From NCBI GenBank assembly GCA_024690465.1, contig JAILPC010000110.1:1-39801 (forward strand): a stretch of DNA of 39,801 nt, written 5' to 3'. This document shows, one piece after another, positions 3,218 through 37,800 of the stretch. Position 1 is the stretch's first letter. Every line of letters begins with the position of its first letter. Position numbers and translations under genes: made by a program. The notes beneath the pieces are model-generated. The model searched no databases. It had not been told where the DNA came from and worked only from the letters and a program-made list of their open reading frames with translations. Source of the DNA: Ruminococcus sp. (GTDB taxonomy: Bacteria; Bacillota; Clostridia; Oscillospirales; Acutalibacteraceae).

Positions 3218-3760
3218 ATGGCGATTAATATGAGTACTAAACTTGCGGACAAGGTTAATCAGGCTTACGGTTTGTGTGATGAACTCGACGGTCTTGGCTA
3301 CGGTATCGGTTACGGCTATAAGGAGAGAGATTCTCTCAAGGCAGAATTTGTTACGTTTATTCTGTACTTTTCTATGGCAGACGGAGAAATAACCGACAAA
3401 GACGCGGAATTTCTCAAAGATTGTCTTGATGTTGAGCAGGACAAAGAGATGATGACGAATCTCTATAACGTAATGTGCAGGGACAATATTGTATATCAGG
3501 AAAAGGATTACGGCGCTCAGGTTCCCGCAACCATATTATCCTATGTTGACAAGGACAACAGGATTTATGCTTCGTCGGGCGACGACAGCAAATCTGTGGC
3601 GGGGTTTGTCGCCGATGTGTATAATTCCATAGGCAATGAATTATTAGCCGACGCAAGCGATGAAGTCAAAAGTAAGCTTTCGTTGTTTATGAACCGCATT
3701 GTTGATTATATTCACGAAAATCTGGCATATGACAATCCCTGCGATTTTGATGTAAAATAA
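3218..3760 (+). CDS. TerB-like domain protein, function unknown
   Basis: The product is a soluble, mostly helical, acidic protein of about 181 residues. The segment ILYFSMADGEITDKDAEFL resembles the TerB / TerB-like fold signature (hydrophobic helix, ADGE turn, acidic helix), seen in tellurite-resistance-associated and other stress or metal-linked proteins. I base the call on that motif alone. No signal peptide or membrane segment is visible. The ORF track starts at GTG 3203; I prefer ATG 3218 because the purine-rich GGCGGAAAGG precedes it, though ATG 3230 is also possible. A strong terminator follows, and an extended -10 promoter precedes, so the gene is probably transcribed alone. It could be an unrelated family with a similar helix. 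Confidence 0.6.
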   Translation: MAINMSTKLADKVNQAYGLCDELDGLGYGIGYGYKERDSLKAEFVTFILYFSMADGEITDKDAEFLKDCLDVEQDKEMMTNLYNVMCRDNIVYQEKDYGAQVPATILSYVDKDNRIYASSGDDSKSVAGFVADVYNSIGNELLADASDEVKSKLSLFMNRIVDYIHENLAYDNPCDFDVK

Positions 3761-3783
3761 TCAACTTAAGCCTAATCGGAAAG

Positions 3784-3819
3784 CCCTGTCGGAAAGTTTG
3801 ATTTTGACAGGGTTTTATT
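3784..3819 (+). terminator. Rho-independent terminator after TerB-like gene
   Basis: CCCTGTC (3784-3790) pairs with GACAGGG (3806-3812) over a 15-nt loop, followed by TTTTATT. It is placed 24 nt after the TerB-like stop codon. Confidence 0.8.
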
Positions 3820-3831
3820 GTATGTTTTTTA

Positions 3832-3860
3832 TTTACAAAGAGGCTTACATAGTGTATTAT
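3832..3860 (+). promoter_or_regulatory. Promoter of GNAT-amidase unit
   Basis: TTTACA (3832-3837), a 17-nt spacer, and TATTAT (3855-3860) form a good sigma-A promoter. It lies 33 nt before the TTG start of the acetyltransferase gene. Confidence 0.65.
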
Positions 3861-3893
3861 TTAGATGTTAAATTTTAAAACAGGAGTTTGGTT

Positions 3894-12328: not shown

Positions 12329-15300
12329 ATGAAAACATTTTTCAGAAAAGGAACCAGTATCCTGCTTGTAGTATTAATGCTTACAGGTGTTATCTCGGTT
12401 ATGCCGATTACGGCGGACGCCGCGAGCAAAAACTACTACTACAAGGAAACCGCCAATGGAGAACGCATTTTCACAAGCGACTTTTTGGATGCATGGGAAA
12501 CGGCGACAGGATTTGACGGAGCGGTAGTAGGTACGCTTACTGATGTTAAGATGTCGTCAAAGCTTGTTACTGACGATTACAAAGAGCTTAATCTTGAGCT
12601 TAACGGTCACAAGATTGACCGAGGACTTACTTCTTCCTCCTCAGGCAAAGATGACGGCAACGTAATCACTGTTTCAAAGGGAGCTACGCTGAACGTCTAC
12701 GGCGGAACAGAAGCATCCCCCTCACCGTCCTGTTCCAATGAAGTCACAGTATGGGACAGAATGCCGACTATTAAATCCGACGGCACAGTTGGGGCGGTAC
12801 CTGCTTGCAAAACCGCGTCTTATACGGTAAGCAACCGCGGTGTAATTACAGGCGGTTACGTTAACGGCAGAGGCGGCGGTATTGTCGCGGAGAGTAAAGC
12901 CGAAGTTAACCTTTACAGCACTGATGTTGTCGGCAACCGCGCAGACCAAGCAGGATCTTTCAGCGGCGGCGGCGGTATCGCGATTTGCGGACAAGGAGCG
13001 ACGCTGTATATGAAAAACAGCAGCGTTAATCATAATTACACCGAGTCCTATGGCGGCGGTATTATTGTTGCTCCCGACGCCAAAGATGTTGAGATAGTTC
13101 TTGAAAAAAATTCGAGTGTTAAGAATAACGTTGCCATGTATAGTGGCGGCGGAGTTGCTATTATCGGCTCAAGCTGCAGCTTTGTTTCACAAAGCGACAG
13201 CTACAATTGTGATGTATCGTATAATTATGCCAACAGTTACGGCGGTGGATTCTATCTGAAATCCCCCTCCAATGTATCCGGTACAATTAATATTTCAAAC
13301 AACGCGGCGAGAAAAAGCGGCGGCGGTGTGTTCATCGACTCAAGCTTGTGCGTTGTTACGAATTGCGTGATAAGCAATAACATAGCGGCTACAGAAGACG
13401 GCGGCGGCGTGGCGCTTACCGGTAAATCCGAAACAAGCGGCCTTTCCGACGCTACTGTCAAAGGGAATATTGCGGCAGGCAAGGGCGACGGTGTGTATGT
13501 TGACTGTGAAAGCAACATTCTCCTGAAGGGAATTACCGTTATTGATGGTAACGACACCAAGGGAAGCAGTCAGAATCTTTTCCTTGCTACTTCTTCCTCA
13601 TACCCGCGGAAAAATGCTTACGTTGTCGATATGCTGAAATCAGGCTCTGTTGTCGGCGTAACATATGGCAAGCAGCATGAGAGTTATCTCACTCCCCACG
13701 AGCGCGGCAAGAGCGCTTCCTCCTTCTATTTTAATGGATACGACGATCCGTCTATCAAAAATTCCCAATATCATTTTGTATTTTTGGAAGACTATCAAGG
13801 AATCGAACTTGTAAACGGATCGGCACCAAAGCCTCAGGCTGCCACGGGCGTAACATCAAAACTTGAGAAAACATCAAACAAATATCAGAACCAACCTGTT
13901 TATAAGGGAGTCTATCAGTACTGCCCCGACAGCGGAGAAGGCGATCAGGAGGCAACTTTCTTCTACTCCGACGGCTACTTTTTAGACGATCCGAAAACAT
14001 ATAATACTCATCTTGCGACACTTTCCGCTTGTATGGCGGTATCGGCATTCAACTCTTATTACGGTGATTCAAATGATGAAAACGCCGAATACAGAGACAA
14101 AAGCAACAACATTCGCCAGATGATGAGCGATATGGGCTGTGTGGACGAGGATATCTATGTAAACGATAACTACCTCAAGCGTCCTGACAGGAACACCATC
14201 GGCTGCTGTATCGGAAGAAAAACATTATCAGACGGGAAAAATCTTGTCATTATCGCGGTTCGCGGAGGCGGTTATGAAGCCGAGTGGGCAGGTAACGTAA
14301 CATTAGGCGAAAGTGGAGAGCATAAGGGCTTCTCTACTGCTGCGGGACAGGTGTTCTCGGCGCTTAAGGATTACCTCGCCGAAAGAGGCATTGACGGCAA
14401 AAGCTCGAACACCAAATTCTGGATAGCAGGCTATTCCCGCGCGGGCGCAACCTCCAACCTCACCGCAAAGAGAATCATTGACGCTTATGACAACTCAGGC
14501 GCGCGCACCTTTGCGTATCCCATAGAAGCTCCCAAAGGCGGAGTCGAAAGCGCGAAGAAGTCGGGCTGCAATTATAACTGTATTCATAATGTCGTTAATT
14601 ACCGCGACATAGTTCCGTGGGTTGCTATGGGCGAGCTGGGCTTTATCCGTTACGGTAAGGATCATTTTGTCCCCGGCAACAGCACCTCGAACGAATACAA
14701 CGAGGGTGTTCCCGCGGATAACTACACATTAATCTTAAATAGCAGCGCGTATAAAAGCCAAAAGGAAAAAATGCTTCCTCAGCTGAAGACTCTAAGCAAA
14801 AGCGCTTACGATGATTATAAGGATTCCTTCCGTACCTGTACGATGGAATACGCTCATTATGGCGAAAAAGTAGCAAAAGCAAAAGCCAAGGAGAATAAAG
14901 GTATTTTAAGTCTTGTAGTTGCAGGTATTGCGGGACCGATTGCTGCCATAGGTACATATGTTAGCCTTGCTGTATTCGCTCCCGACGAAGCTAACGCTGA
15001 CGGTGATTTAATAAAGCCCGACAAAGCAAATTTATCTGTTGAGAAATGGATTCCGAAATTCTTTGATAAATTTGTACGCTATGCGGTGGATTATAACGGG
15101 TCCAATGCCGCGGCGGCAAGAAGTACATACAGTACTACCAAAGTTTCCGACACTAAAAAAACATTTGAGGAAGCGCTTGCCGATATATTAGCTGTACTTA
15201 AGGGCGGCGCGAGCAAATCCGGACAATTAAAGGATGGCTTAGGGGGTATCGCGGAAGATATCGGAGTGGATCTGGTTGAGGCCGCTTTAACGATTTACCT

Positions 15301-18300
15301 TTCTTACTTCAACAAAGATATCCCTGTTATAAGCTATTTCGGCAATGATTCATACGAAAACATTTTTAACGATGACCTGTGGCCCTTGGTTAAAGAGAAG
15401 ATGAAGGATAAGGGCATTCCGAGTGATGAGATTGCTAATTACAGAAACGCGTTCAAAGCGGCGCTGAAATATCTGCTTAACTTCTTGGGCGACGATTACA
15501 ACAAGGACGGCGGACAGCTGCTCGGAACCTTGGCAAAAAATATAAAAATTCTTTTCCAGACTCATATTCCCGAGATTGCTACGGCCTGGATAAGAAGTTA
15601 CGACAGCTACTATAATAACGAAACAAGTCCTGTAGCATACAGCGGAAAGACAAAACCCGCAGACCCTGCTGTTGAGGTTATCTCCGCCACTACAGGCAAG
15701 GCAACTACCTATTCAGACGCCACGACGATTACGGTTCATCCGAGTGATATAGTAAGGCTTGTTCCCAACAGTAAATCACTCAGAGACTCGGGAGAGGCTA
15801 TCTACTATCAGTTCTATAGCAAAGACGACAAAACAGAGCAGAAGTGGAACGCCTTCTCAAATGGCAAGAAAATGAGCGATTTTGTCGCTTCTACCGGCAC
15901 GGAAGAAAATGATTTGTATGAAATACGGGCATTTTCAACTCACTATGATATGAAATCTAACGGTGAGACTACGGATAACAACAAACAATCAGCCGATTAT
16001 TTGCAGTCCGAATCAAGGCGTTTCGTATTGAAGTATGAAAAAGCATTCCAGGACGGAGATTATGTATTTGAGTATGACCTTGAAAACAAGTACTACACCA
16101 TAAATAAATATAACGGTACGGGCGGAAAGGTAGTAATTCCGTCAACAGTGCTTGATTCCCCTGTCAGCGCTATTGCGGACAGAGCATTCAAAGGAAAGAC
16201 AAATATTAAAAGTATCACGCTCCCCGACAATATCAAGACAATTGGCGACAACGCGTTTACAAACTGCTCGGGTCTTACCAAGATAACTATTCCCGATTCT
16301 CTTGAACACCTTGGAGCGCGGGCGTTCAGCAACTGTCCGATAACAGAATTGACAGTCGGCGGAAACGCAAACTTTGATTACGCTAATCTTCCTGTCACCA
16401 CAGTAGAAAAGATTAATGTGACAGGTGACACCATCAAAAATAACGCGTTTACGAATTGCGTCAACCTCAAATCCGTAAAGTTATCGGATGACATGAAAAA
16501 TATAGGCGACGGCGCGTTTAAGGGCTGTAACAGTCTCAAGAGCATCAACATTACCGACGATATTGCCAGAATAGGTGATTACGCATTCTCAGGCTGTTCT
16601 GAACTCGACCCCTTCGAGATACCGTATAGACTCGAGTATTTAGGAGCTTACGCGTTTGAGGGATGTGTGAAGTTTACCAATCTTACAATCCCCGGATATA
16701 AACTTATTTACATAGGTAACGACGCGTTTAAGGGTTGCACGGGTCTTGAAAATGTAACCTTTAAACCATTCTATCTTATGGGTCACGCCAGAACGGTCGG
16801 CAGTTTTATTTTCGAAAACTGCGGTAAAATAGAAAACCTGACAATACCCGGTGACGATGACTGCAGTTATGGAAACGTTCCGAATTTCTTCAAAACTGTT
16901 ACGGTTACGGGCGACGAAGTTAAGGACGGAAGATTTTCGTACTGTTACTTTAATAATCTTATCCTTGAAAGCACAATAAAAAGTATAGGCAAAAACGCGT
17001 TTAAAGAGTGTACCAGTCTTACGAGCGTTGGAATCCCTGCCAGTGTCGGTTCTATCGGCGATAACGCCTTTGAGGGCTGTACAGGGCTTGAGGATGTGAC
17101 CGTCTTAAAATACAATGTCACTTTTGGTTCTGACGTATTCAAGAACTGTCTTAGTCTGTTAACGATTCACGCGCTGCCGAACTCAACAGCTCATCAATAT
17201 GCTGTAAACAACGGTTTAAAATATGAGAAGCAATATAACCAAACATTTATTTTCGGCGAGGATTACTGGCGTTATACAATTTATGAGGGCAACGCCGTAA
17301 TTACCAAGTACACAGGCAACTTCAGCTACGCCGACGGTCGGGAACTTGTGGTCACCGTACCGTCAAAGATGCAATCAGATACGTATAATGTTACCCAGAT
17401 TGCCGAAAACGCGTTTGAGGGCAATGATCATGTTGATCGTGTAATAATTCCCGAGGGAGTTAAGTACATTTCGAAAGAAGCCTTCAAGAATTGTAAGAAT
17501 CTGAAATCCGCAACGCTTCCCTCAACTCTTATTCAATTAGACCACGACGCGTTCAATGGGTGCGAAAAACTTGAGGAAGTAATAATCGAATCCAACAGTA
17601 AAAAAGGATTAACGATAAAAGATAAAGCGTTTGCAAACTGTACCTCTTTAAAGAGCATAGTGCTTCCCAGACGTGTAAGTCAGCTGGGAGAAAAGGTGTT
17701 TGAGGGAGATACATCGCTTTCACAGATAATCATGCTCGGCAAGGGCGGATTCTCCAGCGGTACATTCGATTCGCTCGATGAATTCACCGTTACAGGATAC
17801 ACCAACGCAAATCCGTATCTTTACGCGAAAGACTACAGAAAAGACTTTGTCGCTGTTGATGACTTCACCTACAAATGTGAAACTATCGACGGAAAATATG
17901 TTGCGTCGGTTATAGGATGCAGTGACTCCATTTCAAAAGACGCAACCGTTCCGATGTATTGTCTGAACTCTGCTGATTCCAATGATTGGAAAGCATACAA
18001 GGTTATTTCGATAGCGGATGACGCTTTCAAATCAGCCTCAGGAGTTTCAAATGTTTCAATCTCTGGCACGGTTACGAGCATTGGTAAAAACGCGTTCAAA
18101 CAATCCAGTGTTAAGAGCGTAACTATTCCCGAAAACGTAACGAGTATCGGCGCTTCGGCATTCAACAGCTGTACAAACCTCACAAGTGTGACGATACTCA
18201 ACAAAAATATTTCATTTGGCAGCGGTTCGTTTATTGACTGCGGTCCCAACCTGGTTATTTACTCGTATAGCAACTCTAAGGCTCAAACCTATGCGGCAAA

Positions 18301-21300
18301 CAACAACCTTAGATTTGTAGCGATTGACCGCGGAAGCGCAACGGGCGAATGGACATATGCACCCAGCGGCACAAATTCCGCTGTTATCACAGGCTACACA
18401 GGTCAGGGCGGTTTGGTGACGGTTCCCGATACTCTCGACGGCCGTACCGTTGAAACAATCCAAAGCGACGCGCTGAAGTCAATTGCTTCCGTTACGAGTG
18501 TAATGATTCCGGAAAGCGTCAAGACGATAGAAGCGAACGCGTTCAAGGATTGCTCCAATCTTAAAGCGGTTACCATTCTGAACAGCGAAGCTGAAATCGA
18601 CGCTGCCGCGTTCGATAACAGCTCAAATATCACAATATTTGGCTATAAAGGCTCTACTGCCGAGACTTATACCGACTCCAAGAGCATAGGCTTTATGGCT
18701 ATTGATGAAACAAACGGCTTTAACTTTACCGTAGACAGACCGAACCATCTGGGTGAAGCGAGAATCAACGGCTACGACGATTCCATGCCCGCCACACTTA
18801 TAATTCCGCCTGTTTTTGCGAAAAACGGCCATGTATATAAGGTTACCGAGATAAACGACTATGCGTTTGTAAACCTCTCCAAAGAAGAATCACCCCTTAA
18901 AAATGTTGTGATTCCGGACACATTAACAACTATCGGTAGAGGTGCCTTCGAAAACTGCGGACTTACTAGCGTGAATATTCCTAACGGCGTCACAACGATA
19001 GGAGATGACGCGTTCGAAGACTGTGATAAACTGACGAGTGTAACAATCCCCGCTTCCGTAATCAGTCTCGGCGCAACGCCGTTCGGCTATTGCGACAAGC
19101 TCACCGAAATAAAGGTTGATTCAAACAACCAGTGTTATAAGGATGTAAACGGCGTTCTCTTTGATAAAAATGTTACAAAGTTGATTGAGTACCCCGCGGC
19201 AAAATCAGGATCGAGTTACACTATCGCAAACAGCGTGACGACGATCGGAACCTGCGCGTTTACCGAAAACAAAAACCTCACCGACGTAACAATCGGAACA
19301 GGAGTTAAAAAGATTGAGGACGGCGCGTTCGAAATGTGCGAAAATCTCGCAAGCGTGACTGTCAACGGCAATATTACCGAAATCGGTCAAATGGCGTTCT
19401 ATGAATGCGGCGCTCTTACCTCCTTTACAATTCCGAGCACCGTTACAAGCATAGGCACATCTGCTTTTGAAGATTCGGGACTTACAAGTGTTACTATCCC
19501 GGGCAGTGTTACGGATATGGGCAGAAACGTGTTCTCCGGCAGCAGAGACCTTGCAACCGTTACAATCCAGAACGGAGTAACAGCTATAGGCGAGTATGCG
19601 TTTTACAGCTGCACAAGCCTTACCGACGTAACAATTCCCAACAGCGTAACCTCAATCGGCAAAAACGCGTTCAACGTTTGTTTAGAGCTCACAAGTGTTT
19701 CAATCCCCAACAGCGTTTCTGATATAGGGGAATACGCTTTTGGTCGTACAGGACTTACAAGCATTTCGATCCCGAACAGCGTTAATCGTATTTCGGACTA
19801 CGCATTCACCGACTGCGAGGATCTTGCACAAGTCACTATTTCAAACGGCATTTCCGAAATAGGCTCAAACGCTTTCAGAAACTGCTCTGCTCTCACAAGT
19901 GTTAATATCCCCGACAGCGTAACGGCCATAGACGAAGCAGCGTTTAAGAATTCGGGACTCACAAGCGTCACTATCTCCGACAGCATCGAGAGCATAGGTG
20001 ACTACGCGTTCTATAATTGCTCAGACCTTGAAGGAGTTACGTTCTATACAGGTGTAAGCGAGATGGGCATGTTCGCGTTCGGAAACTGCAATAAGCTTAC
20101 AAGCATTACTATCCCAAGCAGTGTTAACAATATTGGCGACTACGCGTTCTATGGATGCGAGGGACTTACAAGTCTCACAATCACCGAAGGAGTCAAGAGT
20201 ATTGGCGAATACGCATTCTATCAATGCTCGGGTCTTACAAGCTTAACAATTCCCGAGAGCGTTACGAACATAGACAGTTTAGCGTTCAGCAGATGCTCAG
20301 CTCTTGGTAAAGTGACTTTCCTTAACAGTGAAACAATATTAGCTGACGATGTCTTTGCAATCCACAAAGGCGGCGGTATCGGCGTTGGACTGACCTTATA
20401 TGCTGAACCCAGCTCCAATATTCAGGAATACGCGGAGGTTAATAACATTAACTTCTCGTCAACCTCAAACGGATTTGAGTATCAGGTAGATGAAGGCAAC
20501 GCCATTATCACCAAGTATAAAGGCAGCGGAGATGTAGTCGTTCCCGATACCATTGACGGATACCCTGTTACCGCGATTGCTCAGGAAGCGTTCAGGAATC
20601 AGAAGTCTGTTACAAGTATTACACTTTCTGAGGGTATTACAGCAATCTACAGCGGAGCATTTACGGGCTGTAAGAAGTTATCATCAATTAATTTACCCGC
20701 AAGCCTTAACACCATAACCAACCAGGGCTTGGATTTATACGGACTCTATTGGGCTGTTGAGTTGGATCCGTTCGACGGCTGCGTCAGCCTCGCGAATATA
20801 ACCGTCGCGTCTGGCAACTCGGATTATAAATCCGTTGACGGCGTCCTTTATAACAAAGAAGGCACTCAGTTAATCAAGTACCCTGAGTTAAAGGCAAATA
20901 CTTCCTTTACTGTTCCGGACACCGTAACTGCAATAGCGGATTACGCGTTCTGGAACGCTTCAAAGCTTAAGTCCGTCAACCTTTCTAATGTTACAGGTTT
21001 GGGTGAACACGCGTTTGAAAACTGCACAGGCATCGTAAATCTTGATTTATCCAAGGTTTCAGGTTTCGGAGCGGCAGTGTTCAGCGGCTGCTCAAGTCTC
21101 GAGAGCGCGATAATTTCCAGTACATCCGAGAATATGTTCGCAGGATGTAAAAACCTTGAGAGCATAGAGATAAAGAGCGGCATTACTTCTATCGCAGACA
21201 GTGCTTTCAGATGCTGCGAAAGCCTTGAAGAGGTAGTAATTCCCGATACTGTCGAAAATATCGGCAACAATGCTTTTGCAAGAACGGGTATCAAATCCAT

Positions 21301-24300
21301 AACAATCCCTGACAGCGTAAGAAATCTTGGCTATTGGACATACGGAGATTCCGCTGTGTTCGCGGGATGCGAACGACTCAAGAGTGTTACTCTCCCCAAT
21401 AATGAAGATTTTTACAGATTATTGTCAGGAATGTTCAGAGGCTGCACAAGACTCAAGAGCATCACAATTCCTGATTGTGTAAATCAAATTTGCGAAAATG
21501 CGTTTAACGGCTGCACAAGCCTTGAGAGCATAACAATCCCTGACAGCGTTGGCTTAATAGAAAATGCAGCGTTCAGCGGTTGCACAAGTCTTGAGAACGT
21601 CAACTTACCTACCGGAGAAGTTTGGGATCTCGGTTACGAAATATTCAAAGGCTGCACAAGTCTTGAGAGTATAACAATCCCCGCTAAATTCAGCGGTATC
21701 GGTATGCAGATGTTTGAAGACTGTGAAAACCTCAGAAATGTAACGATTAAAAACGGCGTTTCTTCAATTGGACACGAGGCATTCAGAGGTTGTGAGAACC
21801 TGGAGAAGATAGTACTCCCTGAGAGTGTTGAAGAAATAAATAGCGCCGCGTTTAAAGACTGCGAAAGCCTTAGAAAGGTATATATTCTGAATAAATCGGC
21901 ACAGATAAGCGATGATGACGAATATACGGAAAGCGCCTTTGACAATTCCTCTGACCTCACCATCTATGGCTGTTCTGGTTCCACGGCGGAGACCTTTACA
22001 AACGGCAAGAATATAAACTTTGTGGCTTTTGATGTTGATAATGGATTGATATATGACTATATTGATTCAAGATATACGGTACACGGCTACAGGGGCACCG
22101 ACACAGATTTATTTATTCCTCCCACAGTCAAAGTAGAGAATACAGTGTACGATGTCACTCATATTGGTACCTACGCCTTCAAAAACCTGACCAATATTGA
22201 GAATGTGACAATTATCGACGGTATAACCAGTATAGACGGCGGAGCGTTCTTTGGATGTTCAAACCTCAATGAGATAATGATTCCCGACAGTGTTACTACA
22301 ATAGGCAGCACTGTGTTCGGAGGATGCACATCTCTTGAAAGCATCAGAATCCCCGCAAGCGTTACAAGCATAAACGCTTCCGCGTTCAATAACTGCTCAT
22401 CCCTTACAAGCATAGTAGTTGATCCAGCAAACCCGAATTACCAGACTATAGACGGCGATCTCTACAGCAAGGACGGTACCGTTCTCGTTAAAGTTGCTCC
22501 CGGAAAGGATATTGAAAGCTTTACGGTTGCGGACAGTGTTACAACAATCGGAGAGAATGCTTTCAGTACCTGTAAGAGTCTTAAATCTCTGACAATCCCT
22601 GCCAGCGTTACAAAACTCGAAGGTGTAATTAACTCAAACGCATTTAAAGACTGTGATAATCTGAAGGATTTAACGGTACCCGGAGATATGTCATTTGATT
22701 TCAACAGACTTCCGAGAACAAGTATTAAGACGTTGACCCTCACAGGAAATTCCGTCAGGGCTCAAGCCTTCGTGAACTGGTCAAATCTTACAAGCGTTGT
22801 TCTATCAGACAGCATTACTTCCATAGAAGACGGTGCGTTTATGAATTGCACGAACCTCAGGAGCATTAATCTTCCTGACGGTTTAACATCCATAGGCTAC
22901 GGTGCGTTCTTCCGCTGTTTAGGCATCACAAGCATCACAATTCCCGACAGCGTTACATTTATAGACGAAGACGCGTTTGGAGTCTGTGCGTACCTTGCCA
23001 AGCTGACAGCGCCCGGAAATGCTGAGTTTAACTATGACAACCTGCCGAAAGAATATGTTAAGAATCTGACAGTTACCGTTAACAGCAAATTGTCAGGATC
23101 CCAGATTATCAAGAGTAAGGCGTTCAGTGACTACACAAATCTTAAGAGCGTAAAGATTAATGACGGCATTGAGACTATAAAAACTCAAGCGTTCAAGGAT
23201 TGTGTAGAGCTCGAGACTGTTTCGTTCCCGAGCAGCATCAAGACTATAGAAGAAGGCGCGTTTGAGGGCTGCGTAAAGCTCAATAACTTCTCAATCCCCG
23301 GCAATGTTACGACCATCGACGATAACGCGTTCAAGGATTGTTCAAGTCTTGACAGCGTGATGATTCCCGAAACGGTAACGTCCATCGGTGACAGCGCGTT
23401 CAGCGGCTGTACTAATCTCACAGACCTGACAGTATCGGGAGACGGAAGTTTCAATTACGATAACCTGCCGAAAGACACCGTTACTACATTAACGGTTACA
23501 GGCGATGAAATAAAGAGCGACGCTTTCTCAGGCTGCGAAAAGCTCACAAGTGTTGAAATCGAAGACGTTAAAAATATAAATAATAACGCGTTCGAAAATT
23601 GCACAGGACTTACGAGCGTAACAATTCCCTCGAGTGTTACAAGCGTAGAAGCTGACGCATTCAGCGGTTGTACAAAACTCACAGACTTGAAAGTACCCGG
23701 AGACGGAAGCTTCAATTACGATAGCTTGCCGAAAGACACTGTTACTACATTAACGGTTACAGGTAACGAAATAAAAAGCGAGGCTTTCTCGGGTTGCGAA
23801 AATCTCTCGAGTGTTGATATTTCCAACAGCGTTACAAAAATAGGAGAAAAGGCATTCTTTGACTGCCCCGAGCTTAAATCAGTCAAGCTCGACTCCGTTG
23901 AGGAAATTGGCTCGTTAGCATTCGGATATATGGAAACTGACGGAAATACAGTTAAGGTTGAAGGATTTACTATGGATTGTCCTTCGGGCTCCAATGCTGA
24001 GAAGTATGGTATAGAAAACGGCTTTATTACTCCTACTCAGCCGACTAATCCTACAAACCCGACAGAACCCACAAACCCGACAACTGTTACAAATCCGACG
24101 GATCCCACAAACCCGACAACTTCTGCACCTAAACTCAGCAAGACAACCGCTAAATTAAAGGCGGGCAAAACTCTTACGCTGAAAGTTACTAACGGTACAG
24201 TAAAGAGCTGGAAATCTTCCAACTCAAAGGTTGTTAAAGTAAAGAGCGGAAAGGTAACTGCCTTAAGAAAGGGTTCTGTTACAATTACCGCCATCTTAAC

Positions 24301-24577
24301 GGACGGCAAGAAGCTAAACTGTAAGGTAACGGTTAAGACCTCGCCGAAGCTCAGCAAAAAGAAAGTCACCGTTAAGTGCGGCAAGACCGTTATTGTTAAG
24401 ATTACAGGCAAAGCGTCTAAAATCAATAATGTATATATTAAGAACAAAAAAGCTAAAGTAATATCCAAGAAAAACGCAACTAAGCTGAAAATCAAAGGAC
24501 TTGCGAAGGGCAATACAACCCTGAAGATCAAAGTCAACGGATTAGTACTTAAGCTGAGAGTTAAAGTAGAAGAATAA
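12329..24577 (+). CDS. Giant secreted BspA-type LRR protein with beta-helix and lipase-like hydrolase
   Basis: This 4082-residue protein starts at ATG 12329, with AGAGG 9 nt upstream; the track's TTG 12299 lacks a good site. Domains in order: signal peptide (MKTFFRKGTSILLVVLMLTG, cleavage likely near ADAA); a Gly-rich right-handed beta-helix (about 85-495, GGGI-type turns); an alpha/beta-hydrolase of the Lipase_3/DUF2974 type (about 525-1095) with nucleophile Ser703 in GYSRAG and a probable Asp in NYRDIVPW; a beta-rich spacer (about 1110-1240); a long LRR_5 array (about 1241-3895; LTSVTIPxSVTSIGxxAF repeats) in several blocks; a PTNPT linker; and two Lys-rich Big_2-like Ig domains. No LPXTG, SLH or dockerin is seen, so surface attachment is uncertain. 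It would act outside the cell. Confidence 0.95.
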   Translation: MKTFFRKGTSILLVVLMLTGVISVMPITADAASKNYYYKETANGERIFTSDFLDAWETATGFDGAVVGTLTDVKMSSKLVTDDYKELNLELNGHKIDRGLTSSSSGKDDGNVITVSKGATLNVYGGTEASPSPSCSNEVTVWDRMPTIKSDGTVGAVPACKTASYTVSNRGVITGGYVNGRGGGIVAESKAEVNLYSTDVVGNRADQAGSFSGGGGIAICGQGATLYMKNSSVNHNYTESYGGGIIVAPDAKDVEIVLEKNSSVKNNVAMYSGGGVAIIGSSCSFVSQSDSYNCDVSYNYANSYGGGFYLKSPSNVSGTINISNNAARKSGGGVFIDSSLCVVTNCVISNNIAATEDGGGVALTGKSETSGLSDATVKGNIAAGKGDGVYVDCESNILLKGITVIDGNDTKGSSQNLFLATSSSYPRKNAYVVDMLKSGSVVGVTYGKQHESYLTPHERGKSASSFYFNGYDDPSIKNSQYHFVFLEDYQGIELVNGSAPKPQAATGVTSKLEKTSNKYQNQPVYKGVYQYCPDSGEGDQEATFFYSDGYFLDDPKTYNTHLATLSACMAVSAFNSYYGDSNDENAEYRDKSNNIRQMMSDMGCVDEDIYVNDNYLKRPDRNTIGCCIGRKTLSDGKNLVIIAVRGGGYEAEWAGNVTLGESGEHKGFSTAAGQVFSALKDYLAERGIDGKSSNTKFWIAGYSRAGATSNLTAKRIIDAYDNSGARTFAYPIEAPKGGVESAKKSGCNYNCIHNVVNYRDIVPWVAMGELGFIRYGKDHFVPGNSTSNEYNEGVPADNYTLILNSSAYKSQKEKMLPQLKTLSKSAYDDYKDSFRTCTMEYAHYGEKVAKAKAKENKGILSLVVAGIAGPIAAIGTYVSLAVFAPDEANADGDLIKPDKANLSVEKWIPKFFDKFVRYAVDYNGSNAAAARSTYSTTKVSDTKKTFEEALADILAVLKGGASKSGQLKDGLGGIAEDIGVDLVEAALTIYLSYFNKDIPVISYFGNDSYENIFNDDLWPLVKEKMKDKGIPSDEIANYRNAFKAALKYLLNFLGDDYNKDGGQLLGTLAKNIKILFQTHIPEIATAWIRSYDSYYNNETSPVAYSGKTKPADPAVEVISATTGKATTYSDATTITVHPSDIVRLVPNSKSLRDSGEAIYYQFYSKDDKTEQKWNAFSNGKKMSDFVASTGTEENDLYEIRAFSTHYDMKSNGETTDNNKQSADYLQSESRRFVLKYEKAFQDGDYVFEYDLENKYYTINKYNGTGGKVVIPSTVLDSPVSAIADRAFKGKTNIKSITLPDNIKTIGDNAFTNCSGLTKITIPDSLEHLGARAFSNCPITELTVGGNANFDYANLPVTTVEKINVTGDTIKNNAFTNCVNLKSVKLSDDMKNIGDGAFKGCNSLKSINITDDIARIGDYAFSGCSELDPFEIPYRLEYLGAYAFEGCVKFTNLTIPGYKLIYIGNDAFKGCTGLENVTFKPFYLMGHARTVGSFIFENCGKIENLTIPGDDDCSYGNVPNFFKTVTVTGDEVKDGRFSYCYFNNLILESTIKSIGKNAFKECTSLTSVGIPASVGSIGDNAFEGCTGLEDVTVLKYNVTFGSDVFKNCLSLLTIHALPNSTAHQYAVNNGLKYEKQYNQTFIFGEDYWRYTIYEGNAVITKYTGNFSYADGRELVVTVPSKMQSDTYNVTQIAENAFEGNDHVDRVIIPEGVKYISKEAFKNCKNLKSATLPSTLIQLDHDAFNGCEKLEEVIIESNSKKGLTIKDKAFANCTSLKSIVLPRRVSQLGEKVFEGDTSLSQIIMLGKGGFSSGTFDSLDEFTVTGYTNANPYLYAKDYRKDFVAVDDFTYKCETIDGKYVASVIGCSDSISKDATVPMYCLNSADSNDWKAYKVISIADDAFKSASGVSNVSISGTVTSIGKNAFKQSSVKSVTIPENVTSIGASAFNSCTNLTSVTILNKNISFGSGSFIDCGPNLVIYSYSNSKAQTYAANNNLRFVAIDRGSATGEWTYAPSGTNSAVITGYTGQGGLVTVPDTLDGRTVETIQSDALKSIASVTSVMIPESVKTIEANAFKDCSNLKAVTILNSEAEIDAAAFDNSSNITIFGYKGSTAETYTDSKSIGFMAIDETNGFNFTVDRPNHLGEARINGYDDSMPATLIIPPVFAKNGHVYKVTEINDYAFVNLSKEESPLKNVVIPDTLTTIGRGAFENCGLTSVNIPNGVTTIGDDAFEDCDKLTSVTIPASVISLGATPFGYCDKLTEIKVDSNNQCYKDVNGVLFDKNVTKLIEYPAAKSGSSYTIANSVTTIGTCAFTENKNLTDVTIGTGVKKIEDGAFEMCENLASVTVNGNITEIGQMAFYECGALTSFTIPSTVTSIGTSAFEDSGLTSVTIPGSVTDMGRNVFSGSRDLATVTIQNGVTAIGEYAFYSCTSLTDVTIPNSVTSIGKNAFNVCLELTSVSIPNSVSDIGEYAFGRTGLTSISIPNSVNRISDYAFTDCEDLAQVTISNGISEIGSNAFRNCSALTSVNIPDSVTAIDEAAFKNSGLTSVTISDSIESIGDYAFYNCSDLEGVTFYTGVSEMGMFAFGNCNKLTSITIPSSVNNIGDYAFYGCEGLTSLTITEGVKSIGEYAFYQCSGLTSLTIPESVTNIDSLAFSRCSALGKVTFLNSETILADDVFAIHKGGGIGVGLTLYAEPSSNIQEYAEVNNINFSSTSNGFEYQVDEGNAIITKYKGSGDVVVPDTIDGYPVTAIAQEAFRNQKSVTSITLSEGITAIYSGAFTGCKKLSSINLPASLNTITNQGLDLYGLYWAVELDPFDGCVSLANITVASGNSDYKSVDGVLYNKEGTQLIKYPELKANTSFTVPDTVTAIADYAFWNASKLKSVNLSNVTGLGEHAFENCTGIVNLDLSKVSGFGAAVFSGCSSLESAIISSTSENMFAGCKNLESIEIKSGITSIADSAFRCCESLEEVVIPDTVENIGNNAFARTGIKSITIPDSVRNLGYWTYGDSAVFAGCERLKSVTLPNNEDFYRLLSGMFRGCTRLKSITIPDCVNQICENAFNGCTSLESITIPDSVGLIENAAFSGCTSLENVNLPTGEVWDLGYEIFKGCTSLESITIPAKFSGIGMQMFEDCENLRNVTIKNGVSSIGHEAFRGCENLEKIVLPESVEEINSAAFKDCESLRKVYILNKSAQISDDDEYTESAFDNSSDLTIYGCSGSTAETFTNGKNINFVAFDVDNGLIYDYIDSRYTVHGYRGTDTDLFIPPTVKVENTVYDVTHIGTYAFKNLTNIENVTIIDGITSIDGGAFFGCSNLNEIMIPDSVTTIGSTVFGGCTSLESIRIPASVTSINASAFNNCSSLTSIVVDPANPNYQTIDGDLYSKDGTVLVKVAPGKDIESFTVADSVTTIGENAFSTCKSLKSLTIPASVTKLEGVINSNAFKDCDNLKDLTVPGDMSFDFNRLPRTSIKTLTLTGNSVRAQAFVNWSNLTSVVLSDSITSIEDGAFMNCTNLRSINLPDGLTSIGYGAFFRCLGITSITIPDSVTFIDEDAFGVCAYLAKLTAPGNAEFNYDNLPKEYVKNLTVTVNSKLSGSQIIKSKAFSDYTNLKSVKINDGIETIKTQAFKDCVELETVSFPSSIKTIEEGAFEGCVKLNNFSIPGNVTTIDDNAFKDCSSLDSVMIPETVTSIGDSAFSGCTNLTDLTVSGDGSFNYDNLPKDTVTTLTVTGDEIKSDAFSGCEKLTSVEIEDVKNINNNAFENCTGLTSVTIPSSVTSVEADAFSGCTKLTDLKVPGDGSFNYDSLPKDTVTTLTVTGNEIKSEAFSGCENLSSVDISNSVTKIGEKAFFDCPELKSVKLDSVEEIGSLAFGYMETDGNTVKVEGFTMDCPSGSNAEKYGIENGFITPTQPTNPTNPTEPTNPTTVTNPTDPTNPTTSAPKLSKTTAKLKAGKTLTLKVTNGTVKSWKSSNSKVVKVKSGKVTALRKGSVTITAILTDGKKLNCKVTVKTSPKLSKKKVTVKCGKTVIVKITGKASKINNVYIKNKKAKVISKKNATKLKIKGLAKGNTTLKIKVNGLVLKLRVKVEE
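23442..23960 (+). repeat. 87-codon tandem duplication inside the LRR array
   Basis: The segment starting gacggaagtttcaattacga (about 23441) recurs with period 261 nt at 23702, encoding GDGSFNYDNLPKDTVTTL and GDGSFNYDSLPKDTVTTL. At nucleotide level the two are nearly identical over roughly 100 nt, pointing to a recent unit duplication. Confidence 0.8.
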
Positions 24578-26220: not shown

Positions 26221-26763
26221 TTATTGGATATAGACAATTGCTGTGCGCTTGAACGCGGTGGCAATTCGTACTGCAGCTGAATAAAAAAGGCTGAAGCAAA
26301 AGCCGTAAACTACAATTTCAAGATTTCCGTTTATCGCGCCTACAATAACGAGCGTTACGGCGAACAGTACGCTTAATAATCCTGTGAAGAATTTCAGCTT
26401 CCAGTTCTTCGACTTCATACTCATTGATTCAATAGCTCTGAGGATATCCACAAAGCCCGTGAAAGCGTAAATGCCCAGAAGATATATCATAATGAAAAGA
26501 TCGCCCATAAACACCATTGTCGATATAAACAAAGCTGCGTCAAGTATGATAATTGCCTGACACAAAGCAGCCTTGCCGCCCACCATATATCTTGCCATTC
26601 TGAAGTAATAAATCAGAAGTTTGAACCCGTAAACAAATACAAGCATACTCACAATTATAGCTATTAGAGGATAACTTTGTTTGGGAGCAAAGAGAAGCAG
26701 CAAAGCGAAAAGAATCATAAAGACGCCGCTGAATACGCTTTTTATACGCTGAAAATAACTCAT
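26221..26763 (-). CDS. DUF308 / HdeD-like integral membrane protein
   Basis: The 180-residue protein is highly hydrophobic, with about five or six membrane spans (for example VFMILFALLLLFAP, PLIAIIVSMLVFVYGF, IMIYLLGIYAFTGF, LLSVLFAVTLVIVGAI). Length, span arrangement and the short basic loops fit the DUF308/HdeD superfamily, whose members are small membrane proteins often linked to acid or envelope stress. The family assignment is by general character, not a specific motif. Its start ATG overlaps the stop of the upstream gene by ATGA, so translation is coupled. It is the last gene of a three-gene operon. Confidence 0.7.
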   Translation of the reverse strand: MSYFQRIKSVFSGVFMILFALLLLFAPKQSYPLIAIIVSMLVFVYGFKLLIYYFRMARYMVGGKAALCQAIIILDAALFISTMVFMGDLFIMIYLLGIYAFTGFVDILRAIESMSMKSKNWKLKFFTGLLSVLFAVTLVIVGAINGNLEIVVYGFCFSLFYSAAVRIATAFKRTAIVYIQ

Positions 26764-28802: not shown

Positions 28803-28855
28803 CAGGTTTAATAATGTTACCGAAGAATATAATGTGAAGAGAAAGGGTGGTTATT

Positions 28856-31800
28856 TTGAAGAAAAAATTTATAAGGCTTGTAAGCGTCCTTTTGACGGTT
28901 CTGATGCTGTCGGCGGTTATGATTACACCGCTTTCGGTCAGCGCGGCGAACACCGACAAACCTATACTTAACGGTGAGGACACAGGTGCAGCCTATGTAG
29001 ACATAAGCTCGTATAAAGGAGCGGTCAGCGACTTTTCCTACGAGGTTTACGGTGATTTTGACGAAAAAGTCAGAATAACAGGTTATAAGGGAACAGGCGG
29101 CGATGTTATTATTCCCGCTGAGATTGACGGCAAACCTGTTACGAAAATCGAAGAAGGCGCGTTCAAGGATAATGCGACAATACGCAACATGATAATTTCC
29201 GCCAGCGTTACAAGCATAGGCGCGGAAGCCTTTAAAGGATGCTCGGATTTGTTCAACATATTTGTTCCCGCAAGCGTAAGTTATATTCACAACGAAGCGT
29301 TCAGCGGCTGCAGCCGTGCTTTGATGTTTTGGACGCAGCTTTCGTCACAGGCAAAAACTTACGCAAGCAAAAACGGCTATGATTACGGTGAAGTGTCTGC
29401 TTACTTTTACAGGGTGCTTAGCGGAAACAAGCTTGAAATCGTAAGCTATATAGGAGTACCTGAAGGAACAGCGGGTGATCTCTACATTCCTTCAGCTATG
29501 GACGGCAAGTCTGTTACGCAGATAGCCACGTACGCTTTCGCTAATAATAAGAGCATAAAAAGCGTAGATATGGCAGGAAGTATTACAAGCATAGGCGATT
29601 ACGCGTTCGGGGGATGTTCAAATCTCGAAAGCGCGGTTATTCCCGCCAGCGTCACTGCTATTGAAGGTCAGCCGTTTTTTGGGTGCAACGTTAATTTCAG
29701 AATTATCGCAAAGGAGTCATCCGCGGCGTATAACTGGGCGGTTTCGAATCACATAAGTTATGTTGAGGATAACACCGAAGCGAGCAATCCCGATGATTTT
29801 GAGTTCTATGCTCCCGATGAATACGGCAATGTTATGCTTAAATCCTACAAGGGCTCAGGCGGGAATGTTGTAATTCCGTCAAGATATAAAGGCTATATTG
29901 TTACAAGCATTGGTGCGTACTCATTTAGTAATAACAAAAAAATAACAAGCCTTACTATTCCGAAGAGCGTTACGAGTATAAGCGATTACGCTTGCGGATA
30001 TTGCCAGAATTTAAGGAGTATCAGCTTCCCCGATACTCTCGGCAGGATAGGAAGCTATGCTTTTACACTTTGTACAAGTCTTAAGAGCGTCACGCTTCCC
30101 GATACTGTTTACAGCTTGGGCGCTTACGCGTTTTATAACTGCACGGGTCTTGAAAAAGTAACTTTGCCCGATAATAATCTTCAAACTATCAACGCGTATA
30201 CGTTCAGCGGATGCACAAGTCTTAAAAGTATTTGTATCCCCAAAAGTGTTGAAAAAATAGACACTCAGGCGTTTTCATACTGCGAAAATTTGAGCGGTGT
30301 ATTACTGCAATATAATCTTAAAACTATAGGCTCGGGGGCGTTTGCCTGCTGTCCTAAGTTTTCCAATTTAGCGATTCCCTCAAGCGTTACGACTATAGAA
30401 GAGTCAGCTTTTGTCAGGTGTGTAGAGCTTAGCAGTTTGGTTATACCCGCAAGTGTTAAGGAGATAAAGGATTTTGCTTTCTACGGCTGCAAGGGTATGG
30501 CGAGCGTAAAGTTTTACTCCGGTAGCGTATCAATAGAGTCTACGAAAGGATATCAGGCATTCGGCGACCCTGGCTCAGGTCTGGTATTCTACGGATATAC
30601 TCCGTCTACCGCTCAAACATACGCGGCACAGTATAACATTCCGTTCCGTGACCTTAGCTCTCAGAATACTACTCCCACAAGCAACTATTATTACAGCACG
30701 AACGGAATTGACCGCACATACGTTGCTACATTTGCGCAAGCATGGAGTGCGGCGAGCAACAGCAGCAGCACGGTGGGTATTCTTACCGATGTGCAGATTT
30801 CGGATACATTATCAGTTCGCGGTTACATTAATCTCGAGCTCAACGGTCACAAGCTCGACAGGGGACTTATAAACGCGGATGCATCTAATGACAATGGCAG
30901 TGTTTTTTATGTTGAGAGAGACGCGAGTCTGAACATTTACGGGGGAACTAAGGCCCATCCAAAGCCCTCATGCTCCGTTTCGACGTCCGTATGGTGGCCC
31001 AACGGTACAATACAGGATTATACGGTTGAAAACCGCGGCGTTATAACAGGCGGTTACACAAGTTCTGATGGTGGCGGAATATATGTTGATCAAGGCGGAT
31101 GTGTTGATCTTCATTATACCGCGGTAACAGGTAACCGCGCCGAGGGAGATTACGAATTCGAAGATTGTGAGTATGGCTTCGGCGGAGGAATTTGTCTTTA
31201 CGGAAACGAATGCGAGCTTTATCTGGATAACAGTGAGGTTTCGTGCAATTATGCCCGAAAGGGCGGCGGCGTAGCGGTTGTCCGCAAAGAAAATGACAAA
31301 TACTCCTCTATGTCAGCTGATAACTGTGTAATTGAGGGTGACGGCAAGGGCGTACTCGGCGAATGCCCGAGCACCATTTCGACAAACTTCGCTGTTGTAT
31401 ACGGCGGAGGCGCGTATTTTGATAATGGTTATTGTTCTGTTAAGGGAGTACAGTTTGATAACAACTACTCAAACGAGGACGGCGGCGGTGTTTATACGAT
31501 TGGTGAATACTGCACCTTCGAGGATTGTGTTATCACAGAGAATAATTCCAAGAAAAACGGCGGCGGTGTATACAACGGCGGCAGTTCCAAGAGCGCGGCA
31601 TATAACACTTATAAGAATGTTGAGATTTCTGTGAATGTCGCAAGCAAATACGGCGACGGTGTATATAACGCTCAAGGTATTGATGTTCAGCTTGAAGGTT
31701 ATTGCGGAATTTACGGCAACGGCGAGTATCCCAAGTATCAGAACCTCTATATGTCGAAATTCGCCATGCACAACACCAGCGGTAACGGCAATACACCCAT

Positions 31801-34800
31801 GGATTACAGGAACAGGACAGGTTACGTTAAGGCTAAGCTTGACTTGAATTCTAATGCCGAGTACGGTGTTTCAGGTGTTTATGTCACATACGCGTCCGAC
31901 CGTGGCGATACCAGGCTTACAAAATTCGGCGACACGTCTTACGTTAAATATTTCGAATCCGACAAGAGCGGAGCTCATTTTGTTACTCTTCCCAGTACGG
32001 AAGCAGATTATCTTTCAAATTATCTTTATACTCAGAACGGGCCTTATATTACTCTTGTAGCGGGCGATAAGCCTCAGCCCACACCTGTTATGCAATTTGA
32101 AACAAGAAAGGCTGTTGATATCACATACCTGACATATAACGACCAGCCCGTTAAGAGGGGTGTATATACCTACGCCGCGTCAGGCGGTGACTGTGACGCT
32201 GTGTTCTATTATTCCGACGGCTACTTTATGGAGAACGCTCAGAATTATAACGATCACCTTGCCACACTCTCAGCGTGTATGGCTAATGCCGCTATGAATG
32301 CCAGAGCGGGAAGCACGGGCGACGACGGCAACTATACGTTCAAGGGCAAGAATATCCATCAGATGATGATAGATATGGGTTGTAAAAATTCGGACATATT
32401 CCTGTCTGACAGCTACGCCCGTAAGCCCGAAATGGATTCAATCGGCTACTGTATCGCCACAAAGAAGCTCTCAAACGGCGACGACCTGGTCATCATAGCT
32501 GTCCGCGGCGGCGGCTACGAGTCTGAGTGGTCCTCAAACGTAACCTTAGGCAAATCGGGCGAGCACGCAGGCTTCGCTAACGCGGCAAATCAGGTGTTCT
32601 CGGGTCTTGAAAAATTCCTTGAGAAGAAAAACATAACGGGCACAAGCTCCACAACAAAGTTCTGGATATCGGGCTTCTCCCGCGCGGGCGCTACCTCTAA
32701 CCTTACAGCCAAGAGAATTATTGATAATTATAATAACAACGGCAAACGCACATTCGCCTATCCCATAGAGGCTCCAAAGGGCGGCGTCGCATCTGCCATA
32801 AAGTCAACCTGTAACTACGAATCCATTCATAATATAATAAATTTCCGTGATATCGTTCCATGGGTTGCCATGGGAGATTTGGGCTTTATCCGCTACGGTG
32901 TTGACCACTTTCTCCCCGGTACAAATGTACCGAACAAATACACAGAGGGTGTGACCCACGACAACTACACCGAAATTCTGGGAACCGACTCTTATAACGC
33001 CCAGAAGCAAAAAATGCTCAAACAGCTTAAACTCCTGAATCCCGACGCGGAATATGATGACTATTTCCACACAGGCTCCTTGTATTATATGTCGATTGCA
33101 GGCAATCAGGCCCTTGGAGCTATACCGCTTATAGGAGAACATCTGCAGCTGCTCGGGCCGAGCGGCAAATTGATACAGGAAACCAAAAAGGGCGACCGAG
33201 ATTACAATATGAGCGTTGAAGACTGGCTCATGATTTTCTGGCAGGATTTCGTAAATTATACGTTTACGTCAAAAACGGCAGATGATAAGCGTGATGAATA
33301 CGCTGCCCAGAAGCCCCAAAAAGGCAGCACGAAAACCTTCGAGGAGTCTCTCAGGGGTTTATTGGATTTATTTATGGCTCCGTCCGAAAAGAGCGACAAG
33401 TTTATGGACGGTTTTTCATATTTTGAAATGGGCGATATTTCCATTCCCCTTCTTCTTAAGATTTATACAAATTATCTTAATACAGCTCTTAACACTCCTT
33501 TGACAAGTGAAACCTATGATGATATATTTTCTGATTTATGGGATACTGTTAAGGGCAAATTGGAAAAGGGCAAAGTTTCAAAGGATGACCTTGAGCTTTA
33601 TCGCCAGTATTTCTACACTGCTCTGCGTTTTATCCTCAGATATGTAAAGACTGATTACGACAAAAACAATCAGAACGACCTGGGAACAATTCTTTACAAC
33701 GCAGGCAGACTTATCCAGAACCATGATACTGATTTAGAGGTACCGCAAGCCTGGATAAGAAGCTATGACAGCTATTATACGGGCACGGGCTCCATACAGG
33801 CTGATGTTAAATATACAGGTTCCAACAGACCAAAGTACCCGAATTTGAAGGTTAAAGACGCGACAAGCAACGCGGTTACCGAATATAATCAGCTTTATTC
33901 TGAAGGCGGGATGCCAATTAGTATAGGTCTTTATGACAAGATCAGATTTATCCCCAATGATTCGACATATGATGTTGAAACCGAGGGCGATACCTACTAC
34001 TTCTGCATCGGCGAACCGATAACAGAAGGCAACTCAGGCATTTTCTTCAACTCAAGATATAAATGGTTTACTCAGAACGATTGGTTTACCCTGGATGATT
34101 ATTCGGATTATATCACCAATAATACCATTAAAATCAACGTATTCTCCGAGCGGGACGGCTTGCTGTCTAACGGCGATAAAGCAAGCATGTACAAAAACTT
34201 GAAGGATAGTTATAATATGGTACCCTCTAAGCGACTGGTACGCACATTTATAATTAATATCAAAGACAGCAGTGTTATAGCTTGCGCCGATAAGTATAAT
34301 TCATCCACTCAAAGCTACGATTACACTGAGTTTACGGTTGCTCAGAACAGCACACGTACAATCAAGGGCGTTAAGCCGGGGGTAGAAAGCGAAGGCGACA
34401 GATGGGTATTTGACCACTGGGAGGTTTTCAAATACAACCCGTCAACAAATAAGGTGGACAGAGACAATCCCGTAAGCTCAGTAGCCTACCGAGCATTGTT
34501 CGGCAACGGTTTTAACGCTAAATCGGAAACAACAACTGTCAAAAATTGCGACGGTTTGAGTTATTTCTTTGAGGCGTTCTACACAAAGCTCAGCTCTTGT
34601 ACGGTAAGTGTGCCCGAGAGCGCCACTAACAATGTATCTTCCGTCAGCGCTTTGTCAAAGGGCAAGTTGAAATTCTCCACCTCATCAGAGTCGGACAGCA
34701 GCCTGTATAAATACGAGTCAAAGGAAATAGCCTACGACACAGAAAATCCCGTATCCATCGATATTGAAACAGTTAAACCTGTTGAGTACATCGAGGACGG

Positions 34801-37800
34801 CTATATGTGGAGCTTCAAGTGCTGGAGGGTTTATCCCTACAACACTCTGACCAAAACGGTTGACAGAGCTCACCCGATTGACAGCTCTCAGTACGCCGAT
34901 TTGTTGGGCAAGGACTTCAAGCCTGAGGCTAAGAAAACAACTGTAACAAACCTTACTAACCAGGACTTCCGGTTTGAGCCTGTTTATGAAGCTCAACCTA
35001 TCAAATATACTACTACGGCAGCTTTCCCCAAAAGCTTTAATATCAATTATAATTCAGATAATGAGCTCTTTGTTTATTCAACAGTCGAGATTCCTTACAT
35101 TGAAGACTCACCGAGATTCATTACTATCAGAGGAGTTAAGCCTTCTTATGAGGCTACTGCCGACATATTTGAGTTCGACCACTGGAACGTATATCTATAT
35201 GATACTAAGAGCGGAACAGCAGATAAAAATAATCCTGTACCCGAGAAATATTACGAGGATTATTTCGGTAGTTCATTCAACCCGGATTCAGAAAACACTA
35301 AGGTCTACAACTTTAATGATAAGGATTATCTGTTCGAGCCTGTCTATAAGACTGAGGTTACCGACGGCGACTTCACCTATACTATAGTTAAGCCCAGAAC
35401 CGTAGAAGCATACGCCGTTGTAAAGAGTTATTCAGGCACTGACGCAAATGTTACTATTCCTTCATCATGTTCAAAAGGCAATCATACCTGGTCTGTCAAG
35501 GGTATAGAAAGCAACGCGTTTAAGGGAAATAAATCTATAACTAAGGTAACAATTCCCAAAATCGTTGAAAGCATCGGCGACTCTGCCTTTGAAGGCTGTA
35601 CGGGACTCACCGATGCAACAATCACAAGAGGTGTTGCAAAAATAGGCGCGCGCGCTTTCAAGGGCTGTACGGGACTTGAAAGACTAACAATTCCCAAGAG
35701 CGTAACAAGCATAGGCGCTGACGCGTTCGCGGACTGCGTTCCCGCGTTAACAATTTACGGTGACTGCGGATACTACGCGCAGAATTACGCTTACGATAAC
35801 GGTATAAAATTCATTGATTCTTCCGAGACCATTCAGTATGCAGTTGTGAACGGCAAGGCTGTTATTACAGGCTTTATAGCTCCTGAAGGGTTTGACGGCA
35901 GGCTGGTAATACCGTCGTTGCTCGGCGCATATGACGTCACAACCATAAGCGCAAACGCGTTTAAGGATAACACTGACATTACCCGAGTAACAATCCCTGA
36001 CAGTGTTTCAAAAATTGACAAAGAAGCTTTCAGCGGATGCAGCAGATTTACCGACTTAGTAATAAGCGGCGGTCATGGTCTGGACACATCAAATCTCGCT
36101 AACTTACCGAATACAATTACAGATTTATTCGTAACGGGTGATGCAATCAAGGCAAACGCGTTTACGGGGTTAACATCTGTCAAAAACGTACGCTTCGGAA
36201 ACAATATTTCCGGCATAGGCGCTAATGCTTTCCGGGGATGCTCGTCACTTACGGGCTTATCACTCCCCGACAGTACTGCAAGCATAAGCGACTCGGCGTT
36301 CAGAGGCTGCTCGAATCTCGAAAGACTGACATTCAGGAACAGCATTACAAGTATAGGCGATTACGCGTTCCAGGGCTGCTCAAATCTTGTGAGCGCGACA
36401 TTTGCAAACAGCAATACAAGTATAGGTTCGAACGCGTTCGCTGACTGTAAGGCGGAATTAACAATCGCAGGTCATCGCGATTCAACTGCAGAGCGTTACG
36501 CAAATAATAACGGTATTAACTTTGCGTCGCTCGATATAGAGGGCGTGTACTCTGATGATTTAATATACGAAGTCAAGGACGGTAAAGTTATAATTGCAGG
36601 CCGTACAAACACAGAGGCAAGTATATTAAACATTCCTCCATCTATCGGGCTCAACCCTGTTACAGAAATAAAATCTTATGCATTTGATGGCAATTACAAC
36701 ATTAAAAGCGTGATTATTCCCGCAAGTGTTGAAACCATAGGCTATCGAGCGTTTATGACATGGTCAGACGCGAAATATACTGTCTACGGTTACAGCGGAA
36801 GCGCCGCGGAAACCTACGTAAGTAATCATCACCCGTTCGTCGCTCTTGACGGTTACAGCTTCAGCGCGACATCTGACGGCAAATGTTCGGTTACGGCTTA
36901 TACGGGTTCTTCCGATAAATTGATTATTCCTTCAGTCTGTCCCGGAGGTACTGTTACAGGTATAGCTGCTAACGCCTTTAAGGGCAAAACAAACATAACA
37001 AACGTATCGATTCCCAACACTGTAACAAGCATAGGCGGCAGCGCGTTTGAGGGCTGCACAGCGCTCACAGGATTAACAATTCCCGACAGCGTTACAAGCA
37101 TAGGCGCTGACGCGTTCAAAAATTGCGGTTCTGGTTTTACAATCAACTGTAATGATTCATCTTATGCTGAGAATTACGCTAGCTCAAATAGTATTAAACG
37201 TGTTGCTTTGGATGGATTTACTTTCAAGGTGCTCGTCGGCGGAACTGTCGCGGTTACCGGCTATAACGGCGACGAGACGGATTTAATTATTCCGAGCACT
37301 GACTCCGAGGGTAGAGTTGTTTCAGAAATATACAGCAGCGCGTTTGCGAGCAATCACATAACAAGCGTAGTTATCCCGAGCAGCGTTGAACGAATTCACG
37401 GGCAGGCATTTAGTTACTGTGAACAGCTTACGAGTGTAACAATACCTTCAAGCGTTAATACTATTGATTATTCCGCATTCAGCAACTGCACAAGTCTTGA
37501 GAGCATAACAATTCCGGGGAGTGTAACAACTATCGGCGGCGGTTTGTTCGATGACTGCACAGGACTTACGAGCGTGATAATCGGTAGCGGAGTTACAGTA
37601 ATGCCAAGCTTCTCGGGCTGCTCAAATCTTAAGAGCGTAACAATCCCCGACAGCATTACAACAATAGGCGCTTCGGTGTTCTATAAATGCAAAAGCCTTG
37701 AGAGCATTACAATTCCGAGCGGTGTTACAAGCATCGGCAAAAGAGCGTTCCAGTACTGCTACGGACTCAAGAGCGCAACAATTCCCGACAGTGTTACTTC

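Follow-up and report, generated by a model that had tools for sequence, protein, structure and literature searches.

A giant Ruminococcus protein combining a class 3 lipase-like module with a BspA-type LRR_5 array

Introduction

Class 3 lipases (PF01764), among them Rhizomucor miehei lipase, plant DAD1-like phospholipase A1 (PLA1) and A. niger feruloyl esterase A, are alpha/beta-hydrolases, as is one module of P0001, the giant Ruminococcus sp. protein described here. P0001 shares with them a GxSxG nucleophile elbow, an Asp within D-[IL]-V-P, and matches at the level of both profile and fold. In contrast to these lipases, P0001 carries GYSRAG in place of GHSLGG, its Asp and His are separated by a helical insert of ~270 residues, and the presumed His sits in a C-terminal HxPExxxAW motif. 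BspA-type LRR_5 surface proteins (PF13306), which include the HupY/LrrG adhesins, are built from the same repeat that makes up ~2,600 residues of P0001. However, P0001 misses the equivalog cut-off for HupY/LrrG, and in P0001 an enzyme core stands before the array. The dockerin proteins of the rumen bacterium Ruminococcus flavefaciens FD-1 are already on record as carrying secreted LRR modules (28 counted) as well as modules of the lipase/esterase type (PMC2930009, PMC3573020). P0001 has modules of these same kinds, but it differs from the FD-1 proteins in size and in having no dockerin, and the two papers showed no FD-1 protein with LRR and this lipase in a single chain.

Results

The window, which is the whole 39,801-nucleotide stretch that was analysed, contains an intact open reading frame on the + strand that extends from an ATG at 12329 to a stop at 24577, with an in-frame TTG upstream at 12299, and encodes the 4,082 residues of P0001 (all P0001 features below are on this strand). 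The order of its parts is signal peptide, beta-helix, alpha/beta-hydrolase, Ig-like region, LRR_5 repeats, P/T linker, and Lys-rich Big_2-like tail. An earlier note on this DNA had read such an architecture in a single frame, and the uninterrupted 4,082-aa frame, together with Pfam matches to LRR_5 and Lipase_3 above cut-off, establishes that it is real. A chance origin is ruled out, as the probability of a 4,082-codon open frame at the local GC content is ~1e-100 and the core recurs elsewhere, both on further contigs of this genome and in additional genomes. Within the frame, no exact DNA repeat is longer than 23 bp, so the array shows no obvious sign of being an assembly artefact; given also these other occurrences of the core, repeat-driven misassembly is ruled out. 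The N-terminus (residues ~1-31; 12329..12421) reads as a signal peptide, with MKTFFRK, a hydrophobic core, and a terminal ITADA-AS, and the probable export of P0001 rests on this visible feature. All parts of P0001 are individually of known kinds, and the protein is a member of a modular enzyme family, interesting but not exotic.

The first module after the signal peptide is a Gly-rich domain (residues 32-505; 12422..13843) with full-length homology in 10 proteins. It was modelled within residues 31-1225 from 10 sequences, which yielded a good beta-helix, whereas the hydrolase was poor (mean pLDDT 59.8), and only the N-terminal part of this model was used. Regular short beta-rungs are predicted at pLDDT ~80-95 over residues 31-415 and with less certainty beyond, and the top PDB matches are mostly parallel beta-helices, although weak (E of at least 0.03). 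No Pfam or NCBIfam profile is above cut-off for this domain, the best being TIGR03804 at 14.9 against 19.45. Thus, the Gly-rich beta-helix proposed earlier is borne out by the predicted structure as a right-handed beta-helix, with short strands stacked in a parallel coil and profiles remaining below cut-off. On the other side of the hydrolase, an Ig-like beta region (residues 1099-1250; 15623..16078) is conserved over the whole core in the paralogs; it has no Pfam match, and its fold is not confidently predicted.

The hydrolase module itself spans residues 511-1098 (13859..15622). As the earlier note had anticipated, Lipase_3 (PF01764) matches residues 665-765 above the gathering cut-off (24.6 bits against 22, E 2.5e-5), and most Lipase_3 matches in P0001 and its relatives exceed the cut-off. 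The alternative named at that time, DUF2974 (Mbeg1-like, PF11187), is ruled out, with no match to P0001 at E<=1. A model of residues 511-1098, built on a 41-sequence alignment in which relatives are 23-52% identical to the window module, has a mean pLDDT of 84.3 and a pTM of 0.88. Its best Foldseek matches in the PDB all have the class-3-lipase fold, including plant phospholipase A1 (7x0d, E 1.5e-5), A. niger feruloyl esterase (1usw, E 6.5e-5), and fungal mono/diacylglycerol lipases. Query-normalised TM-scores to known lipases are low (0.2-0.27), in part because of the large helical insert. Additionally, the alignment profile matches R. miehei lipase (E 4.5e-8) with the catalytic Ser and Asp in register. 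The module is therefore a Lipase_3 (class 3 lipase) relative with putative enzyme activity, and NCBIfam holds no dedicated model for it.

The earlier note had placed the nucleophile at Ser703, and GYSRAG is found exactly there (Ser codon 14435..14437). This Ser is invariant in 41 homologues, and in the predicted structure (as S193) it lies between a strand (185-190) and a helix (194-210), which supports an elbow at the level of topology only. The putative catalytic Asp760 (RDIVP; 14606..14608) aligns with Asp203 of R. miehei lipase, the catalytic Asp of that enzyme; the position is D in 35/41 homologues and E in 6/41. The triad His, which had been left unidentified, is most likely His1079 (HIPEIATAW; 15563..15565), judging from conservation: H is present in at least 90% of the 41 homologues, within a C-terminal H-[YI]-P-E-x3-A-W motif that is nearly invariant among them. 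The nearest candidate, His779 (KDHFVPG), was rejected because its conservation is limited to close relatives, in contrast to the near-invariant His1079. Across the 41 sequences, many only 25-30% identical, the Ser is invariant and the His nearly so, and Ser, Asp and His are all kept in all four full paralogs (see below). Overall, the catalytic lipase-type module suggested earlier is supported by its Lipase_3 relationship, elbow topology and conserved triad residues, and remains putative as an enzyme. Asp760 and His1079 are separated by the ~270-residue insert (14744..15562; helices 296-567 of the model), which is almost all helix in the model and is possibly a cap or lid. As a separate observation, six genus members of ~800 residues (L034, L035, L036, L037, L039, and L082) have a Glu where the putative catalytic Asp would be, and in these the hydrolase has a dockerin-like end, Pfam-confirmed as dockerin for L082.

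The BspA-type LRR_5 array (residues ~1266-3870; 16124..23938) covers ~2,600 residues, or over 60% of P0001. PF13306 matches it far above cut-off, as the earlier note had led one to expect, in 24 stretches totalling 1494 bits (E=0), and a motif scan gives a repeat spacing of 23 residues. The array is acidic (pI 4.5, net -122). The best NCBIfam match of P0001 is the HupY/LrrG adhesin model (NF047961), at 501 bits against an equivalog cut-off of 1250, and the genome has many other LRR_5 proteins (160 matches). A Pro/Thr linker follows (residues 3900-3935; 24026..24133; PTNPTNPTEPTNPT...), and then the C-terminal tail (24134..24574), which matches Big_2 in two stretches when searched in isolation (31.8 bits) but is sub-threshold in the whole chain (20.1 against 22.8). 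This Lys-rich tail is strongly basic (pI 10.8, net +38 over 147 residues). Pfam and motif scans of P0001 found no LPXTG, SLH, dockerin or other wall-binding module, and the idea of an anchored or tethered surface enzyme is therefore not supported; the genome has sortases and 16 dockerin matches.

A second giant paralog, absent from the earlier note, lies downstream on the + strand (28847..39799) and is cut by the contig end. It consists of LRR_5, beta-helix, hydrolase, InlB-like region, and LRR_5 (Pfam LRR_5 1056 bits, Lipase_3 26.1 bits), and its hydrolase module (32111..33787, +), with a GFSRAG Ser codon near 32678, is 49% identical to that of P0001. Contigs C133 and C69 each carry a further paralog, and C46 has a cut copy. 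The genome thus holds at least four LRR_5 versions of a ~1,200-residue core and one version with CHAP and glycogen-binding modules: the C46 copy (L029), cut at its start, has the core followed by CHAP and AMPK1_CBM-type modules and InlB-type repeats, in place of LRR_5. This is a lineage-specific expansion of the core. The enzyme is N-terminal to the array in P0001, as had been claimed, but this order is not general, as LRR_5 flanks the core on both sides in the three longer paralogs (the second window paralog, C133 and C69). The C133 and C69 paralogs and the G014 proteins appear to end alike (ALRFVTAV...DYGYIVT...) in a domain with no Pfam name, at the place where P0001 has its Lys-rich Big_2 tail. 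Elsewhere in the window, a secreted-looking protein (2-1921, -), cut by the contig start, has an InlB-type (Flg_new) repeat below cut-off, and a DUF6765 family protein (26760-27917, -; 233 bits) is encoded between the two giant genes.

Ten proteins, one of them (L017) cut at its contig end, share the beta-helix, hydrolase and Ig-like region as a single homologous unit of ~1,200 residues. Close copies of this core (~60% identity in the hydrolase) are found in 4/161 genus genomes, its own included, whereas the hydrolase module in the wide sense is found in 39/391 genomes sampled across the class. LRR_5 and the hydrolase are joined in one chain, with Pfam confirmation, in eight or more further genomes spread over six families: G014, G036 and G385 within its own family, and G475, G818, G898 (two), G939 and G1138 in five others. 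These are minimum counts, since many loci were taken with short flanks. The arrangement of P0001 had been called unusual, a view that such fusions weaken. The wide occurrence that the earlier note had named as a refutation is borne out in part in sequence data, but no paper describing the architecture was found in literature searches on BspA-like proteins and lipases of the rumen.

The modules joined to the core are exchanged among relatives. For instance, one core protein of G014 has LRR_5 and another does not, and the core is followed by CHAP and AMPK1_CBM-type modules in the C46 copy, in G075, and in both G449 proteins. The hydrolase module is also fused in relatives to VWA, SLH, RCC1, trypsin, dockerin, and InlB-type repeats, and two proteins (L094, L134) have LRR_5, lipase and dockerin in one chain. 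In a tree of 106 modules (from a quick search, with a few long branches and one row that is a cut duplicate), LRR_5-bearing members fall in separate groups with 9 parsimony state changes, at least four of which are forced by well-supported branches. Partners exchanged on the core thus include LRR_5, CHAP with a CBM48-like module, InlB-type repeats, and dockerin, and the dockerin- or SLH-bearing relatives show that the hydrolase module is secreted enzyme-type cargo.

Discussion

The hydrolase fold, the modules around it, the conserved Ser/Asp/His, and the full-length homology of the core were established by computation. We consider it probable (about 0.68) that P0001 is a giant secreted multimodular carboxylester hydrolase, in which adhesive modules bring the enzyme to its target. 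The core would be exported together with the long BspA-type LRR_5 array, and Ser703-Asp760-His1079 would act as the triad of an active enzyme, with the helical insert serving as a substrate cap or lid. By binding a surface or a polysaccharide, the array and the beta-helix may raise the local concentration of the enzyme at its substrate, while the Lys-rich tail could hold the chain to anionic cell-wall polymers. The most likely substrate is an acyl ester of plant or microbial origin, for example a membrane lipid or a cell-wall ester. Points against this reading are the low TM-scores to known lipases, the negative scans of P0001 for a wall anchor, and the Glu at the Asp760 position in six dockerin-bearing genus members.

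If the hydrolase fold served only as a binding or structural module, then P0001 would instead be a very long BspA/HupY-like adhesin with a pseudoenzyme. Such an adhesin would be consistent with the share of the chain taken up by LRR_5 (over 60%), with the best NCBIfam match being the HupY/LrrG model, though below cut-off, and with the 160 matches to other LRR_5 proteins of this genome. However, a pseudoenzyme would usually lose its triad, whereas here Ser/Asp/His are kept in four full paralogs and the Ser is invariant in 41 divergent sequences, and we regard this explanation as unlikely. It is rather improbable that the protein is a bacteriolytic or antagonistic enzyme, with the lipase core attacking the membranes of other microbes and the CHAP amidase of sister proteins cutting peptidoglycan. 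Fusions of the core with CHAP (in C46, G075 and both G449 proteins) and the presence of phospholipase A1 among the closest solved folds would fit such a role, but the starch/glycogen-binding module of AMPK1_CBM type in the CHAP relatives, together with a dockerin in one of them, points to feed digestion. In addition, the neighbourhood of the window genes showed neither an immunity gene nor a dedicated secretion cassette. Finally, P0001 could be a preprotein from which proteolysis frees the hydrolase, so that the hydrolase and the LRR_5 array act separately; the free shuffling of these two parts among relatives is compatible with this. Yet no protease site was identified, and the core and Ig-like region are continuous across the aligned proteins, which makes a preprotein very improbable.

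Within the preferred reading of P0001 as a secreted ester hydrolase, a broader and doubtful proposal is that the module represents a distinct, unnamed class 3 lipase subfamily, defined by the large helical cap and the far C-terminal HxPExxxAW motif with its catalytic His. This subfamily might be an exchangeable catalytic unit on many extracellular targeting modules (LRR_5, beta-helix, CHAP, VWA, SLH, RCC1, and dockerin) of Clostridia-type gut bacteria, with an expansion in this genome to five or more giant proteins that target a particular surface. Its members are easily missed in annotation because no NCBIfam model is dedicated to the module and Lipase_3 scores are weak, and the module is nevertheless present in about one in ten of the genomes sampled across the class. 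Should they be active, these proteins would constitute a set of secreted lipid/ester hydrolases in gut and rumen bacteria, with a bearing on gut lipolysis and the removal of cell-wall esters, and their natural module combinations could be compared in studies of substrate targeting. One further copy of the hydrolase module (L024, 9866-11470, +) lies on a contig labelled as a Thermoplasmata archaeon, which could reflect either gene transfer or MAG contamination.
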